Positions 16,883-41,245 of a DNA stretch of 64,000 nt are shown here, one piece after another (within the stretch, counting starts at the first letter, position 1; the number at the start of each line of letters is the position of its first letter). A program made the translations under genes and the position numbers. This DNA is from Planctomycetota bacterium. Lineage in GTDB: Bacteria > Planctomycetota > Planctomycetia > Gemmatales > Gemmataceae. The notes beneath the pieces were generated by a model. That model worked only from the letters and a program-made list of their open reading frames with translations, searched no databases and was not told where the DNA came from. Location of the stretch: assembly GCA_016191165.1 (NCBI GenBank), contig JACPPF010000118.1, positions 1 through 64,000 on the forward strand, in the 5' to 3' direction.

Positions 16883-19081
16883 TCAGCGAACCTCCACCTC
16901 GACCCCATCCACGAACCGCCGGCATCCCGGCAGCGCTTCCAGAAATCGCCGGCCGTACGGCTTTGTCAACATGCGCGGGTCCAATATCGCGACCAAACCT
17001 GTGTCGCTCTTCGTTCTTATCAACCGACCAAAACCTTGCTTCAACTTCAAGATCGCTTGCGGCAGCGAGTAGTCGCTAAACGCCTGGCCGCCGCGCGCGG
17101 AGATCGCCTCGCAGCGCGCCTCGACAATCGGGCGGTCCGGGGGAACGAACGGGAGCTTCGTGATGATCACGTTCGACAACGCCTCGCCTTGCACATCGAC
17201 GCCTTGCCAAAAACTGTCCACGCCGAACAACACCGCCCCCGGCGTCGCACGAAACGTCTCCAGCATCCGGTTCGACGGCACGCCGTCGCTCTGGCTGATG
17301 AGTGTCATGTCATGGTCGGCAAACCAGTCGCGCAGAAAGTTGGCCGAGCGCTGCATGGCCAAATTGCTGGTGAACAGGACAAACGCGCGCCCCTGGGTGC
17401 GCAAAGTCAGATCCTGGATTCTGGCGCAACAGGCTTCCTCGAAGTTGCGCGCGTTTGCGGTCGGATCGGGCATCTGGCGGTAGAGGTGTAATTCTGCTTG
17501 CGTGCGATAATCGAACGGGCTGCCGAGCTGGATTGCCAAATTCTCGGCGCCGGCTACTTCGCAGGGTGCGTCGTGCTCGTCGCCTTCAAGGTCAACCGCA
17601 GATACTTGGCGGGGTGGAAACCCGTAGCGCTCCTTGAAGAAGGCAAAGCCGTGGGCGCCGCCGGTGGTCAGGGTGGCGCTCGTGAGGATGACGGACGGAA
17701 TCCGCTCGAAAAGTCGCTCACGAAAAATCGGGCCGATTTCGATCGGGGCGCACGCGAGTTGAAGCCGATCGCCGCGCTCACCCATGCCTTCGATCCAGTA
17801 GACCTGGTCCGGCAGCTTCTGCGCCAGCCAGGCGACGAGACTCGACGCCAGGCTTTCGCAGCGACTGGCCGCGGATTCCAGCTCGATTTTTTCCTCCTCG
17901 CGTTCGACCTTTTCCGCCACCGCGTCGAGATGGCGTCCCAGTTTTTCGAACTCATGCGAGAGGATGTCGGGCACGATGCCCGCCTCGCGAATGCGCAGCG
18001 AATCGCTGGCGTATTTTCCTCCCCCTTCTCCTTGGGAAAGGGGTTGAGGGTGAATGGCGTTCGGTGCGAGTTGCGAGCCCTCACCCCCGGCCCCTCTCCC
18101 AGAGGGAGAGGGGAGAGAGGCGGTGGCCCCTCTCCCAGTGGGAGAGGCGTGACGGAGCATCAAACGCCGCCAGTCGAAAATACTGTCAAAAAAAAGCTGC
18201 ACGATGCGGCGCGTGCGATGCACTTGCAGCCAGTCCTGCGAATCGCCGTGGATGCTCAAGAGGCCAATCGCCTTGCCGCGGCGTTCGTTGTAGAGGCGGT
18301 TCAGTAGATAGTCGCACTGCCCGCGCGTGATCGACAAACCCATGTGTTCCGCGGCAACGTCTTCAAGCGTATGCGCCTCGTCAAAGATGACGGCCTGATA
18401 CTTGGGCAGGATGCCGACTGCGGGGTTGATCGATCTCAAGGCAAGGTCGGCGAAAAACAGCGAGTGGTTGACGATCAGAATCTTCGCGCTTTGAATATTA
18501 CGGCGTGCCTTGTAGTAAAAGCAATCACGGTAGTCCGGGCAGCGCGTGCCCAGGCAGTTGCCGGAATCGCTCTCGACGAGCTCCCACACCGGCGGCATGG
18601 GGCGAAAGTCAAGGTCGCTGCGGCTGCCGTCGCGGGAGTCCTTCGACCACTGGAGGATGGTATCGAGCTGATCGAGCGCGCCGGATTCCGTGAGCAGGGA
18701 GTAGCCGCGCTGGTGGGCGACCTGAAGCCGGCGCTTGCTGAGGTAATTTCCGCGGCCCTTCACCAGCAACGCGGAGAATTTTTCGGGCATCACCTGTTGC
18801 AGAAACGGGATGTCCTTGCGGATGAGCTGCTCTTGCAGGCTGATCGTGTGCGTGGAGATGACGACGCGGCCCTCTTTCGTGGCACACGCGGCCTGGATGG
18901 CGGGGACGAGATAGGCGAAGCTCTTGCCGACGCCCGTGCCGGCCTCGACCATGAGGTGATGGCCATCGTCGAGCGCGTCGGCGACGGCGCGCGCCATGTG
19001 CAGTTGCTCCGGGCGCGATTCGTAATTGGGCAGCCGCCGGGCGATGGCGCCGTCAGGGCCTAAGATGGCTTCGTGGGACAT
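16883..19081 (-). CDS. ATP-dependent DNA helicase, DinG/XPD family, with an in-frame palindromic insertion
   Basis: A 732-aa superfamily 2 helicase. Walker A is MVEAGTGVGKS (about residue 45-55), the DEAH box is VIFDEAHTLED, and late motifs include LFGVDSFWQGVDVQGE and GFGRLIRT. Four cysteines in the iron-sulfur region (GNCLGTRCPDYRDCFYYKARR) fit the 4Fe-4S cluster of DinG/XPD helicases that unwind 5'-3' and resolve R-loops. About 48 residues (SPTGRG ... GEGGG, encoded at about 18010-18153) are a translated palindromic repeat cluster with no counterpart in the family. It lies between the DEAH box and the C-terminal helicase motifs, presumably in a tolerant loop. Confidence 0.9.
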   Translation of the reverse strand: MSHEAILGPDGAIARRLPNYESRPEQLHMARAVADALDDGHHLMVEAGTGVGKSFAYLVPAIQAACATKEGRVVISTHTISLQEQLIRKDIPFLQQVMPEKFSALLVKGRGNYLSKRRLQVAHQRGYSLLTESGALDQLDTILQWSKDSRDGSRSDLDFRPMPPVWELVESDSGNCLGTRCPDYRDCFYYKARRNIQSAKILIVNHSLFFADLALRSINPAVGILPKYQAVIFDEAHTLEDVAAEHMGLSITRGQCDYLLNRLYNERRGKAIGLLSIHGDSQDWLQVHRTRRIVQLFFDSIFDWRRLMLRHASPTGRGATASLPSPSGRGAGGEGSQLAPNAIHPQPLSQGEGGGKYASDSLRIREAGIVPDILSHEFEKLGRHLDAVAEKVEREEEKIELESAASRCESLASSLVAWLAQKLPDQVYWIEGMGERGDRLQLACAPIEIGPIFRERLFERIPSVILTSATLTTGGAHGFAFFKERYGFPPRQVSAVDLEGDEHDAPCEVAGAENLAIQLGSPFDYRTQAELHLYRQMPDPTANARNFEEACCARIQDLTLRTQGRAFVLFTSNLAMQRSANFLRDWFADHDMTLISQSDGVPSNRMLETFRATPGAVLFGVDSFWQGVDVQGEALSNVIITKLPFVPPDRPIVEARCEAISARGGQAFSDYSLPQAILKLKQGFGRLIRTKSDTGLVAILDPRMLTKPYGRRFLEALPGCRRFVDGVEVEVR
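18010..18153. repeat. compound palindromic element inside the helicase gene
   Basis: At least three related palindromes sit side by side: ccccttctccttgggaaagggg, cccctctcccagagggagagggg and cccctctcccagtgggagagg. The whole block keeps the frame and encodes low-complexity Pro/Ser/Gly/Arg peptides (SPTGRG, LPSPSGRGAGGEG, PQPLSQGEGGG). Related units occur at 36096-36141, 37630-37672 and 40555-40601. Confidence 0.85.
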
Positions 19082-35135: not shown

Positions 35136-38100
35136 TCAGGGGCCCACACTAAAGACGCGGTTGATACGACTTTGGTTTCCCTGGCGATCCCTCACCGTTA
35201 CGATTAGCCGGCCGCGTTGCAGCCTGGCCAGCGGTTCTGCCAACGGCAGCTCCCAGACGCCCTGCGATTTCACGCGGAATTTGGACGCCAGGTTGGTGCC
35301 TGCGGGAACGCCGGCCAGCGTGAAATCGGCGGTGACCTCGAACGACTTCAGATCGAGACCGCTGTAAGTGTCGTGCATGCCGATCAGGATGCGGGTAACC
35401 TTCTCGTTTTTCCCAGGCTCGGGATACGTCAGCGTCAAGGTTGGCCGTTGATCGTCGCCGTGCCAGCCGAAGCCCGCGGGTGAGCGTAGCGAACCTGCGG
35501 GATCCAGATCAATGGGACAACCCAGGTCGATCCAGCGGATGATCGTGCGGCGATCCTCTTCCGAAAGCGCCTTGACCTTGCCCGCCTTGACCGCGGCCGG
35601 CGGCGGCATGATGCTGCCTTCGTAGTCGATGTCCACCACGTTGTCGCGAATCCAGTAACGCAGCTTTTGTTCGTCGTCGTAGTTGACCCCCTTGATCCGT
35701 TTGCCGCCCTGATGCAGGGACTTCGGGTCGTTGCGAATCGCCAGGCTCGGGAAGTCGTCATTCGATCGGCTGTCCATGCGCTTGCCAAACAGCTTCCACA
35801 CCAGCAGGCTGCGCCGTGACTGGAAGCGCACGACATATCGGCTCACCGAATCGGGCGGCCAACCCACCTCGCGCGGCTTGTAACGCTCGCCGCCGACGGC
35901 CAGCCGAAAATACGTCATCGGCACGCGCACGTCCGGCCCGGCGTCGTGCCCGAAGGCGGGGAGCGTCTTCTTCATGTCGTCGTCATCGAGGACGAGGCCA
36001 CCAGCGGGCTTGCGTCCGCCGTTCGCCGTGTGACAGGCGACGCAGCTCCGCTCGAAAATCGGGCGGATGTCGCGGAAGTACTCGACGTTGAGCAAGGCCC
36101 CCCTCACCCCCAACCCCTTTCCCGCAAGGGGCGAGGGGCGCAAGTAGCGCAGGCCCGTCTCGTTTTTCACGTCCCACTGGCGTTTCGATTGATCGTTCGC
36201 CCTGGTGGTGATGAGCGGGGTATGCGTCGTAAGATCGAAAATCTTGTAGTCCTTGCGGGCGGCCATCGTTTTCTCGAACGGCGTTGGCTGTTGCGAATGA
36301 GCATGGCAGCCGCCGCAGTCGTTGCGAATTTCGCCCGGGCGAAGTTGATGCCAGGTCTGGGCGAAATTGAGGACCATGCCGTGCTTGTCGATGGTCTGGA
36401 AGGTGAACGACTGGTTCGCGGGAATCTTCGCCAGGAAGCTGGTGTCGGGATTGCCGTCGGGGTCGAGGGGTTGGGTTATGCCCACCCCCCGCTCACGCGG
36501 AAGGCTCGCATTGAAATGGCGCACGGGAATTTCGCCGAGGATGCGCAGGCGTTCCATGGCGTGGTTGCCGTAGAGGGGAGCGCCGCCGTTGCCCTTGATG
36601 TCGGTGCGCGGTTCCTGGGCGACGATGCGAATGGCGTGGATGTCGCTGTTGTCATAGATTCCGGCGTCGGCGCCCTGCATCGACCAGTTCATGCGCATGC
36701 GTTTGGGATCGCGTGGCACCGCCGTCACGCTGCCCTTGGGAACATAGCCCTCGGGCGCACTTTCGCGTTTGTACATGCTGGACGTGCCGACCAGGCCATA
36801 GGGCGTGCCTTCGGGCAGGTGCGGCGAGCGCTTGCCGTCATTCTTGTGCACGAGAGTTTTCGGTTCGTCGATGCCATAGATGCGCTTGTAGGGCACGAGC
36901 GGCCGAGGCCATTGCTCGTTGTACTTTGGATCGTTCTTGATGAGGAGCATCTGGCCGGGTTCGTCGATGGGCTGCCCGTTTTTGATGAGATAGATGCCGG
37001 CGTCGATGAACGGGTAGTAGTTGTACTGGTGATTGGCCGGCCCGGGGGTCCAGACGGTGAGCAGGTGATTATCTGGAGCGCCGCAGGGATGCGTGACCTT
37101 GCCTAGCGCGTGGGGATAACTCTTGCCGCCGTGCTGTTTGGATTTGACCTGCTCACCTGGGGTCGACGAGGGGGCGGGGCCGTCCTCGCCGTAGGCGAAC
37201 TTCGTCAGCACCTGGATGCCGGTCGGCGTGAAAGGCATCTGGAAGGTGTGCCCGCCGTAGCGTTGTCCCTTGTTGCGCGGGTCGCGCAAATCGCCTGGCC
37301 CGAATGCGGGAACGCCAACCGGCGGTCGCAGAGGCAGCTTGAGGAAGGTGCCGAACCCGCTGTTGTTGAGGTTGTAATATTGCTCGACGACGATGCTTTT
37401 ATCAGAAAGCTGCGACTGGAAGTGAAACGCCGGCGGCGCTCCGCCGGTCCAGTACGCGCTCACCACCGGCTCCCAGTTCGTGCCATCGGGATGAATGCTC
37501 CAGATGCCCCACAGGATGCTGTTGTGCGTGCCGTGCGATTCGAGCGTCGAATAGCAAATGCGGCCATCGGTCAGGATCACCGGGTGCAAGGCACACGCGA
37601 TATTAAGGTAGCCAATTTGGTCCACATTTCTCTCCCTCTCCCCTGGTGGGAGAGGGTTGGGGTGAGGGGGATCGTCCATCACGAAAAGTTGCAGCGTGAT
37701 GCGAGGATAGCCGCGCGGCGGGGCGTAGGCGTTGCGGTTCGACGTGAACACGACCTTGCCGCCCGGAGCGGGACAAGGGCCGAGATTGAAGACGCCGTAG
37801 CGCAGCGACGTCTTGCCCTTCTCCGGCGTGCGAAAGTCCTTCGACCACGGCGCGGCCCCGAGGTTCGGCGTGAAGGTTTGATCCGTGAGACGAACGGTCT
37901 TTTTCGATTGCACGTGGACCTTGTAAATGTCCGAACCGGAGTGCTTGGCGTCGATGAACTTGGCATAGTAGACCCATTTGGCGTCGAAGGAGACGTAAGG
38001 GTCCATGACGCTGCCGTCCTTGCCGCTGACGAGAAGCTCCTCGCTGCCATCGGGGTGTAGGAGCAGCAGGTCGGCGCCAGGCTCCATGCGCGTGGGGTCG

Positions 38101-38309
38101 GAGAACTCGGCCCACTTGGTGCGTTTCACATCACCGTGGCGCGGCGTCCGCACGTAGACGATATCGTAATCGTATTTGACGGTCTTGTCGGTCGAAACGT
38201 GCGGCGGGTTGACGTTGAGCTTTTTCGGCGGCGCCTTCTTGTTTTGTCCCAATGCGGGGGAGAACGCGGCAAATAGGAATAGAAACGCAAAGATAAGCTG
38301 ACGTTGCAT
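35136..38309 (-). CDS. large secreted PD40/cytochrome-like protein, HzsA-related
   Basis: A 1057-aa protein with a signal peptide (LIFAFLFLFAAFSPALG). The N-terminal part has TolB/PD40-like propeller motifs (ADLLLLHPDGSEELLVSG, GGKVVFTSNRNAY). The family assignment, as seen in many planctomycetes, is hydrazine synthase alpha-subunit related. Two CxxCH heme-binding motifs are visible, CGGCH at 665-669 and CVACH at 756-760, so c-type heme is plausible. Three palindromic elements are translated in frame (peptides PHPNPLPPGERE, SPLAGKGLGVRGAL and AGSLRSPAG). True hydrazine synthesis is not implied. The selenoprotein candidate lies 70 bp upstream on the same strand. Confidence 0.85.
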   Translation of the reverse strand: MQRQLIFAFLFLFAAFSPALGQNKKAPPKKLNVNPPHVSTDKTVKYDYDIVYVRTPRHGDVKRTKWAEFSDPTRMEPGADLLLLHPDGSEELLVSGKDGSVMDPYVSFDAKWVYYAKFIDAKHSGSDIYKVHVQSKKTVRLTDQTFTPNLGAAPWSKDFRTPEKGKTSLRYGVFNLGPCPAPGGKVVFTSNRNAYAPPRGYPRITLQLFVMDDPPHPNPLPPGERERNVDQIGYLNIACALHPVILTDGRICYSTLESHGTHNSILWGIWSIHPDGTNWEPVVSAYWTGGAPPAFHFQSQLSDKSIVVEQYYNLNNSGFGTFLKLPLRPPVGVPAFGPGDLRDPRNKGQRYGGHTFQMPFTPTGIQVLTKFAYGEDGPAPSSTPGEQVKSKQHGGKSYPHALGKVTHPCGAPDNHLLTVWTPGPANHQYNYYPFIDAGIYLIKNGQPIDEPGQMLLIKNDPKYNEQWPRPLVPYKRIYGIDEPKTLVHKNDGKRSPHLPEGTPYGLVGTSSMYKRESAPEGYVPKGSVTAVPRDPKRMRMNWSMQGADAGIYDNSDIHAIRIVAQEPRTDIKGNGGAPLYGNHAMERLRILGEIPVRHFNASLPRERGVGITQPLDPDGNPDTSFLAKIPANQSFTFQTIDKHGMVLNFAQTWHQLRPGEIRNDCGGCHAHSQQPTPFEKTMAARKDYKIFDLTTHTPLITTRANDQSKRQWDVKNETGLRYLRPSPLAGKGLGVRGALLNVEYFRDIRPIFERSCVACHTANGGRKPAGGLVLDDDDMKKTLPAFGHDAGPDVRVPMTYFRLAVGGERYKPREVGWPPDSVSRYVVRFQSRRSLLVWKLFGKRMDSRSNDDFPSLAIRNDPKSLHQGGKRIKGVNYDDEQKLRYWIRDNVVDIDYEGSIMPPPAAVKAGKVKALSEEDRRTIIRWIDLGCPIDLDPAGSLRSPAGFGWHGDDQRPTLTLTYPEPGKNEKVTRILIGMHDTYSGLDLKSFEVTADFTLAGVPAGTNLASKFRVKSQGVWELPLAEPLARLQRGRLIVTVRDRQGNQSRINRVFSVGP
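35473..35501. repeat. in-frame palindrome of the gagcgcagcga family inside the HzsA-related gene
   Basis: The sequence cccgcgggtgagcgtagcga with cctgcggg closing the palindrome lies within the coding region and is translated as part of PAGSLRSPAG. It matches the intergenic family found at gene ends elsewhere in the window. Confidence 0.7.
36096..36141. repeat. in-frame ccctcaccccc-type element inside the HzsA-related gene
   Basis: It contains ccctcacccccaacccctt and tcccgcaaggggcgagggg, and encodes SPLAGKGLGVRGAL in frame on the minus strand. It lies between the two CxxCH motifs. Confidence 0.8.
37630..37672. repeat. in-frame ctctcccctggtgggagag element inside the HzsA-related gene
   Basis: A palindrome (arms ctctccc / gggagag) with the ggttggggtgaggggg tail. 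It is translated as PHPNPLPPGERE between propeller-like strands (LQLFVMDD before, YLNIACALHP after). Confidence 0.8.
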
Positions 38310-39894: not shown

Positions 39895-41106
39895 TTACTT
39901 GAACGCCTCGTACTCCCTCCCACCCAAAAGCGCCGCGGCGATCTTCATCTTCAAGATCTCATCGGTCCCCTCATAAATTCGGCACACGCGCACGTCCATC
40001 AGATGCCGCCCCGGGCGATAAAGCGTGGACCAGCCGCGGCCGCCGAATATCTGCACGGCATGATCGGCCGCCTCCCACGCGGCATTCGAGGCGAATAACT
40101 TCGCCTGGGCCGCCAGTAGATCGGCCTTCGCCTTCAACGCGTCGTTGTTCGGTTCGGCGGCGCTGGCGTCCTTGGCTTCGGCGGCCTTCATCACCACGGC
40201 TTCGCTGGCGAGGCGCGCCATCTCGATACCGGCCAGGTGTTCCTGCACGAGCTGATGCTTGCCAATCACCTTGCCGTGCTGCATGCGCTCCTTGGCGTAG
40301 TGGATCGATTCGATCAGGCAGTCTTCGATGACGCCGAGGCAACCCGCGGCCACGCTCAGGCGTCCGCTGACGAGCGTGCCCATCGCAATGCGAAAGCCGT
40401 CGCCTTCCGGGCCGAGCAGGTTGGCGATCGGTGTCTGGTAGTCGGTGAGTTCAAACATCCCGGTGTTTGCCGTCGGCATGCCGACCTTGGCGAGCAGGTC
40501 CTCGCGCGCGATGCCGGGGGCATCGGTGTCGATGACAAAGGCGCTGATGCGGCGTCCCCCCCTCACCCCCGACCCCTCTCCCACAGGGGGAGAGGGGGGG
40601 CGATCGTAAGCAAAGACCACGATGGTGGTCGCGATGCCGGCGTTCGAGATCAGGTATTTCGTGCCGTTGAGGACGAAGTGGTCGTCCTTTCGTTCATAGG
40701 TGCTTTGCATTTCGAGCGGGTTGCTGCCGGCCTCGGGTTCGGTCAGGCCGAACGCGAGGATCTTGTCGCCTTTGCAGGAAGCGGGGAGGTACTTTTGCTT
40801 CAGTTCCGCGCTGCCCCAGGTCATGATCGGGTATTGGCCGATGCTGGTGTGGCCCGAGAAAAAGGTGCGCACGCCGGTCCCTTCCTGGCCGATGCGTGCG
40901 AGCGCCCTGGCGTAAGTGGCGGTATCGGCGCCGCGGCCGCCATATTCGGTCGGTACGGGCATGCCCAGGATGTTGTATTTCTGAGCCAGAGGCACCAGGT
41001 GGTGATTGAAGCGGTGCTCGACGTAGCACAACTCCTCGTGCTCACGCAGCTCCTGGCAGAAGGATTCGACATCGGACAGCAAGCGGCCTCGGTCCGCGGG
41101 ATTCAT
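39895..41106 (-). CDS. acyl-CoA dehydrogenase with an in-frame palindromic insertion
   Basis: A 403-aa FAD enzyme for alpha,beta-dehydrogenation of acyl-CoA. It has the FAD/substrate motif LAFGLTEPEAGSNPLEMQS, FVLNGTKYLISNAG, VSGRLSVAAGCLGV and the C-terminal IFGGRGWSTLYRPGR and RIYEGTDEI. Between strands of the middle domain a translated palindrome (PPSPPVGEGSGVRGG, from 40555-40601) interrupts the family sequence after VVFAYDR. Met at 41106 was chosen over an upstream start at 41148. The substrate chain length is not clear. Confidence 0.9.
   Translation of the reverse strand: MNPADRGRLLSDVESFCQELREHEELCYVEHRFNHHLVPLAQKYNILGMPVPTEYGGRGADTATYARALARIGQEGTGVRTFFSGHTSIGQYPIMTWGSAELKQKYLPASCKGDKILAFGLTEPEAGSNPLEMQSTYERKDDHFVLNGTKYLISNAGIATTIVVFAYDRPPSPPVGEGSGVRGGRRISAFVIDTDAPGIAREDLLAKVGMPTANTGMFELTDYQTPIANLLGPEGDGFRIAMGTLVSGRLSVAAGCLGVIEDCLIESIHYAKERMQHGKVIGKHQLVQEHLAGIEMARLASEAVVMKAAEAKDASAAEPNNDALKAKADLLAAQAKLFASNAAWEAADHAVQIFGGRGWSTLYRPGRHLMDVRVCRIYEGTDEILKMKIAAALLGGREYEAFK
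40555..40601. repeat. in-frame ccctcaccccc-type element inside the acyl-CoA dehydrogenase gene
   Basis: It contains cccctcacccccgacccct followed by the palindrome ccctctcccacagggggaga. It is translated in frame and lies in a surface loop of the middle beta domain. Same family as 18010-18153, 36096-36141 and 37630-37672. Confidence 0.85.
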
Positions 41107-41245
41107 GTTCGACTCCTGGCATTGCCGCTCGCGGCCTAGCGCTCGCAATACGTCAAGCTAAAACAGTTCCGCGTTCAGCGTAGCGGATATGATAGCCAAA
41201 ACGCCGGTTGCATTCCCGGATTTCGGCCGGTACATTGGGTTGACT

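Follow-up and report, generated by a model that had tools for sequence, protein, structure and literature searches.

The gene for a DinG-type helicase in this planctomycete genome contains three adjacent palindromes, all of them read through in frame, which raises the question of what these palindromes are and how they came to lie within a conserved enzyme. We analysed the whole stretch of 64,000 nucleotides that holds the gene (the window) together with other stretches of the same genome, its congeners, and matches in other bacteria. At a probability of somewhat above three in four, we consider the insert to consist of several clustered copies of a palindromic unit of the TM_ECO type that is mobile but non-autonomous, and of which the in-frame copies in tolerant loops survive.

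The helicase gene and its insert

The host gene (16886-19081, minus strand) encodes 732 amino acids. The preliminary description had read it as a DinG-type helicase, and the product indeed matches the NCBIfam family YoaA (E=6.6e-171; 570 bits, which is below the family cut-off of 680 bits) and contains the Pfam domains DEAD_2 and Helicase_C_2. Three palindromes had been located within the gene; they are present at 18017-18152, and the reading frame remains open across all three. Unit 1 (18017-18053, plus strand) is degenerate, has an A-type-like second loop (TTG), and is translated as HPQPLSQGEGGG. Unit 2 (18077-18115, minus strand) is complete, with a C-stem, a loop, a G-stem, a CCG loop, and a third G-strand; it is of TM_ECO type B with 10-nt stems and is translated as PSPSGRGAGGEG. 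The third palindrome (18125-18152, given without a strand) is a lone hairpin that has no clear third strand and is translated as SPTGRG. In the protein the order of peptides is SPTGRG...LPSPSGRGAGGEG...HPQPLSQGEGGG. The pattern CCCTCTCCCN0-12GGGAGAGG has seven matches in the window as compared to 0.00 expected from 100 shuffles, and three of the seven fall at 18092-18147. Folding z-scores were −3.6 (DNA, plus strand) and −5.9 (RNA, minus strand). A search of Rfam with positions 17900-18300 (E up to 10) returned only matches below the gathering score, mostly to microRNA families, and these were set aside as chance.

The insert as translated comprises about residues 313-357 (18011-18145, minus strand). 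The gain had been put at about 48 residues; measured against four congeners that lack the insert, the net gain is smaller, 123 nt or 41 amino acids. In an AlphaFold2 model built from 29 sequences (mean pLDDT 83.9), residues 315-357 scored below 50 and are modelled as disordered, while the ten-residue blocks of the flanking helix (281-312) and strand (361-364) scored 91 and 93. For DinG, the prediction places the insert in a part of the protein that is probably exposed and tolerant. D234-H237, which is invariant, and the conserved blocks of the C-terminal part are intact and lie outside the insert; we take them to be the helicase motifs, in keeping with the earlier observation that the palindromes avoid these.

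Alignment with homologs had been proposed to show the insertion boundary, with an ancestral segment to be concluded if distant species carried the same residues. The insert is missing from 27 of the 29 homologs aligned and is therefore not ancestral to the helicase family, even though two congeners share it: G002 has paired units at the identical place and in the identical frames, and G006 has a remnant in which one unit is left. Across the homologs the linker at this place varies in length, and several carry unrelated extensions.

The repeat unit and its distribution among bacteria

Aligned copies gave the consensus TTYTC, CCCTCTCCC, a loop of 3, 5 or 6 nt, GGGAGAGGG, GYYG, and GGGGTGAGGG, about 40 nt in all. 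The borders of the unit are sharp, with information dropping from 1.6 to 0.2 bits at the 3' end. The strict palindrome occurs in 105 copies genome-wide and in none with the reversed-pattern control. With six mismatches allowed at most, a loose three-strand regular expression matched too freely (135 hits; 33 in reversed sequence); an element was defined here as a match with at most three mismatches or a strict hairpin. Second loops among the copies were GTTGG (16), GCCGG (12), and GTCGG (10).

To judge from its sequence, the repeat is TM_ECO, a G/C-rich intrastrand triplex motif of E. coli. TM_ECO, or BoxC, is described by Holder et al. (2015, PMC4666352) as a C-stem, a loop of 3-6 nt, a G-stem, a 3-nt loop (CCG or TTA-like), and a third G-strand; the units are paired there with third strands facing and occur sporadically between close relatives. 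Unit 2, which on the minus strand reads CCCCTCTCCC-TCT-GGGAGAGGGG-CCG-GGGGTGAGGG, satisfies the TM_ECO formula 5'-CCCTCNCCCN3-6GGGNGAGGGN3GGGNGAGGG with stems of 10 rather than 9, that is, one base longer. The units of this genome likewise form inverted pairs with third strands facing each other, and the two types of second loop, A (TTA) and B (CCG), are found in these pairs, with A plus B not in every pair; the spacer between paired units shows no conservation. The unit plan, the inverted pairing, and the sporadic presence among relatives are thus shared with the E. coli motif (PMC4666352). Matches to the window unit occur in 4139 of 5426 E. coli genomes, at best with 91.7% identity over 36 nt. 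A repeat with a matching hairpin, CCCTCTCCCXX(X)GGGAGAGGG, is also reported from Enterobacter sp. 638 at about 100 copies per genome (PMC2869309).

The preliminary description compared the insert with the protein-inserted palindromes of Rickettsia, and the comparison holds: in seven genes, conserved proteins have the insert in frame and homologs free of it. The elements of Rickettsia and Wolbachia (RPE, WPE) are reported to be palindromes in frame in solvent-exposed parts of conserved genes (PMC2229807, PMC3767692); RPE, at 100-150 bp and from Rickettsia, are set apart from the present unit by description. Intragenic REPs with GTAG/CGTC tags, described by Di Nocera et al. (2013, PMC3733652), are similar in being short palindromes, single or paired, that are translated within tRNA synthetases and genes for repair, but those tags are missing from the present unit and most such REPs are intergenic; the text of that paper mentions neither CCCTC nor triplex. 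In-frame palindromes (RPE, WPE, GTAG/CGTC REPs) and the repeat itself (as TM_ECO and in Enterobacter sp. 638) are therefore already known, and the sequence family had been described before, a point beyond the preliminary description. As far as the open-licence literature searched shows, the entry of the TM_ECO family into coding sequence on a genomic scale is new.

A search for the full unit without mismatch gave at least 116 stretches from named genomes, which among the matches listed belong to Chloroflexi, Acidobacteria, Cyanobacteria, Proteobacteria, Planctomycetota, Armatimonadetes, Verrucomicrobia (Akkermansiaceae), and others. Within this phylum it was present in only eight of 294 genomes, and in the present genome (G000) at 67 places. 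Units with enough flank were scored as spanned if an ORF extended at least 100 codons to each side. Among the named loci listed, 22 of 104 exact units were spanned, as compared to 54% of random positions; by the equal criterion, 24 of 38 were spanned in the G000 sample, as compared to 56%. Most of these bacteria thus keep the unit from their genes; the present genome does not. A Pfam scan of 10 of the 22 ORF-spanned units, among the matches listed, gave a clear in-frame case in HemF of Chitinimonas taiwanensis DSM 18899, which is an isolate, so that this case is no binning artefact. Clear in-frame cases in metagenome-assembled genomes (MAGs) were GlnE (Planctomycetales), valyl-tRNA synthetase (Chloroflexi), and DNA polymerase I (Competibacteraceae). 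In an Akkermansiaceae MAG (L190:2319-4616), a single ORF encodes an N6 DNA methylase and a DUF559 domain with a unit between the two, and the fusion may have arisen at the repeat. Another genome of the same family as ours, G026, has 490 palindromes and longer composites with a recurrent-looking translated spacer, RACDVALGEKRRPHPNPLP, as compared to the variable spacers in G000; in the 13 stretches sampled from it (L123-L135), copies were mostly in doubtful ORFs and were left out of the counts.

Placement, reading frame, and host genes

Placement was determined in 1.12 Mb of the 7.23-Mb genome, made up of the window and 60 other stretches: 40 (L057-L096) mostly picked for containing palindromes and 20 (L097-L116) picked regardless of palindromes, four of their contigs for Y1_Tnp hits. 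Genes were called with a home-made caller, with the elements left unmasked. Besides a genome-wide count of copies, the preliminary description had suggested determining the fraction inside genes. This came to 43 of the 68 elements sampled, with eight more overlapping a gene end and 17 intergenic; in the 20 stretches unselected for palindromes, seven elements were inside genes and four were intergenic. Random positions in the sample fell inside genes in 69% of cases and between genes in 13.5%. The E. coli copies, in contrast, are reported to be always intergenic (PMC4666352), a reported property of TM_ECO that is outside its sequence definition. The Enterobacter copies differ too, lying at 3' gene ends with a presumed role in termination (PMC2869309), whereas copies here are mostly within genes.

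For 43 elements the two flanks scored as coding on the same strand, and in 38 of these the frame was kept (p=1e-13 against 1/3). In all five cases of a changed frame the element touches or adjoins the end of a predicted gene, for the most part where two genes meet. Of the remaining elements, one had flanks coding on opposite strands and 24 had a weak flank. Five of the six frames of this G/C-rich unit contain no stop, and about one-third of insertions of unconstrained length would therefore be readable. It was possible to orient 38 of the 41 strict in-gene hairpins, which fell into phases 0-2 as 14, 0, and 3 in one orientation and 10, 4, and 7 in the other. The phase class that is empty among these 38 is the frame with an in-phase TGA, and the five open frames are used unevenly (p=0.03).

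Among the 60 elements clearly inside or between genes, 72% were inside. Random insertion followed by survival of frame-keeping, stop-free copies would give 59% (p=0.048), and insertion without any filter would give 84% (p=0.021). A sieve of frame and stop codons alone is thus roughly enough to account for the placement, with little sign of further cost.

The helicase is one of dozens of host genes. Pfam scans covered 40 of 41 hosts, all except a 3083-aa gene of L084, and 12 inserts fell within one Pfam domain alignment above cut-off. The domains are tyrosyl-tRNA synthetase, tryptophan synthase alpha, M32 carboxypeptidase, homocysteine S-methyltransferase, acyl-CoA dehydrogenase (middle domain), a histidine-kinase ATPase, exonuclease V gamma, an AcrB-type transporter, a type ISP specificity domain, DUF4432, PSD1, and PSCyt2. 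Inserts between domains occur in DinG, a UPF0004/radical-SAM/TRAM enzyme, UPF0261, and a DUF116-polyprenyl synthase. The genome encodes the planctomycete-type domains PSCyt1, PSD1, and DUF1501. Four DUF1501 paralogs (L072:10630, L072:13296, L082:7004, L105:5942) carry a unit at the same place, immediately before the domain on its N-terminal side, which suggests a junction that is either a hot spot or highly tolerant. Further units in the window are in frame in the acyl-CoA dehydrogenase gene (39898-41148, minus strand; unit at 40560-40596, minus strand) and in a gene of 1057 aa with HZS_alpha as its middle domain (35139-38309, minus strand), which holds a degenerate unit at 36101-36137 (given without a strand) and another at 37634-37668 (plus strand).

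All seven genes compared with relatives have congeners that lack the insert. The TyrRS insert is missing in all four informative congeners and the FBPase insert in all three relatives; for homocysteine S-methyltransferase, four relatives lack the insert and G006 is occupied. The TPP enzyme gene has several tandem units in this genome and none in five relatives, two of which have unrelated longer loops; in G002 (L267, near 1501-1560) a hairpin lies at the matching loop with the two halves of the gene in different frames, whether because the gene is broken, through an error of sequencing, or by a frameshift. Four congeners have acyl-CoA dehydrogenase without the insert, and G002 and G010 have unrelated loops. 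For the DUF116-polyprenyl synthase, G001 is occupied and the other six lack the insert, four of these with unrelated linkers. We considered a gene fusion by the element in this last gene and rejected it, given a one-piece ORF in seven of eight relatives, those with a full-length match. The G001 ortholog of the L071 methyltransferase bears a unit at the matching place.

Proposed movement and persistence of the unit

Sharp borders, dispersal, and insert-free sites in relatives argue for mobility. We propose that the unit of about 40 nt, TTYTC-CCCTCTCCC-loop-GGGAGAGGG-GYYG-GGGGTGAGGG, would transpose by the action of an enzyme supplied in trans and would insert both within and between genes. Copies that add a multiple of three nucleotides, in any of the five TGA-free frames and in a surface loop or linker, would survive and the rest would be lost. 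Survivors would persist as disordered peptide rich in Pro, Ser, Gly, and Arg, presumably translated in the cell with retention of enzyme activity, and the units may form triplexes in vivo. In DinG, the target would have been the variable-length linker between the helix 281-312 and the strand 361-364. Several observations count against this account: the uneven use of frames, the broken-frame hairpin in the G002 TPP gene, the five changed frames, and the unconserved spacer of paired units, which would not be expected if a pair were transposed as one element. No target-site duplication was readable for TyrRS, the TPP enzyme, FBPase, or homocysteine S-methyltransferase, the congeners being too diverged.

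A particular form of the same explanation is that the unit belongs to the REP type and has a RAYT (Y1/HUH transposase) as its mover. The genome has 11 Y1_Tnp matches, and across 59 genomes, which are phylogenetically non-independent, Y1_Tnp and palindrome counts correlate (Spearman 0.46), so Y1 transposases are a lead as movers of the unit. However, a palindrome lies within 1.5 kb at only one of the 11 Y1_Tnp loci, rather than copies flanking a RAYT gene, and the mobilising gene was not found by this adjacency. The ends of the unit (TTYTC...GAGGG) are without the GTAG/CGTC foot tags of the REP superfamilies described in PMC3733652; 46 palindromes occur in G033 although Y1_Tnp has no match there, and nine genomes have five or more Y1_Tnp matches yet at most six palindromes. 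We regard movement by a RAYT as doubtful, at perhaps the level of a working possibility.

Copies might also arise by template switching during replication or repair, provoked by the hairpin or triplex and independent of any transposase. Palindromes that are clustered and in tandem, as in the TPP gene, and the unconserved spacers would fit such a process, and the motif is reported to be tied to instability in E. coli (PMC4666352). Sharp borders and dispersal to unrelated loci speak against it, and we judge it unlikely. Selection of the inserted peptide for a function in its hosts, such as regulation or partner binding, could be read from in-frame retention in congeners about 81-84% identical and from the uneven frame use; yet the hosts are functionally unrelated, several frames and peptides are in use, and the same genes in congeners do without the insert, which makes this explanation very improbable. 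That the segment is an ordinary fast-evolving, low-complexity helicase linker, G/C-rich by chance, would suit the variable linker length and unrelated extensions of the homologs but is already contradicted by the strict genome copies against an empty control, the fixed borders, and the occurrence of the repeat in dozens of other genes, where the sites are unrelated, and is hardly credible.

A wider reading can be offered tentatively: the unit may be a mobile repeat that forms triplexes, is spread across bacteria, and is excluded from the genes of most hosts, but that in this lineage has colonised coding sequence almost at the genomic average and become a genome-wide generator of disordered loops in core enzymes. 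Protein-coding palindromes are in any case not peculiar to reduced intracellular genomes or to GTAG/CGTC REPs; a repeat that had been known mainly from between genes lies in frame, and would be translated, within core enzymes here, in a genome of 7.2 Mb, and within the HemF, GlnE, ValRS, and DNA polymerase I genes of other bacteria.

Shared inserts are not placeable as single events, since support in a genus tree (DinG plus polyprenyl synthase) was 35-75 except for G003+G005, too low to resolve the genus. The insert sets {G000,G002,G006} and {G000,G001} are incompatible on any tree unless loss, exchange, or repeated insertion occurred. The congeners provide ready pairs with and without an insert for work on tolerance, translation, and mobility. 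By a looser hairpin count, copy number is sporadic among them, with 123 in G000, 106 in G001, 86 in G002, and 124 in G006, as compared to 1, 3, and 6 in G003, G004, and G005; so strong a difference in palindrome copy number within one genus (1-6 versus 86-124) is a ready basis for comparisons aimed at the mobilising gene.
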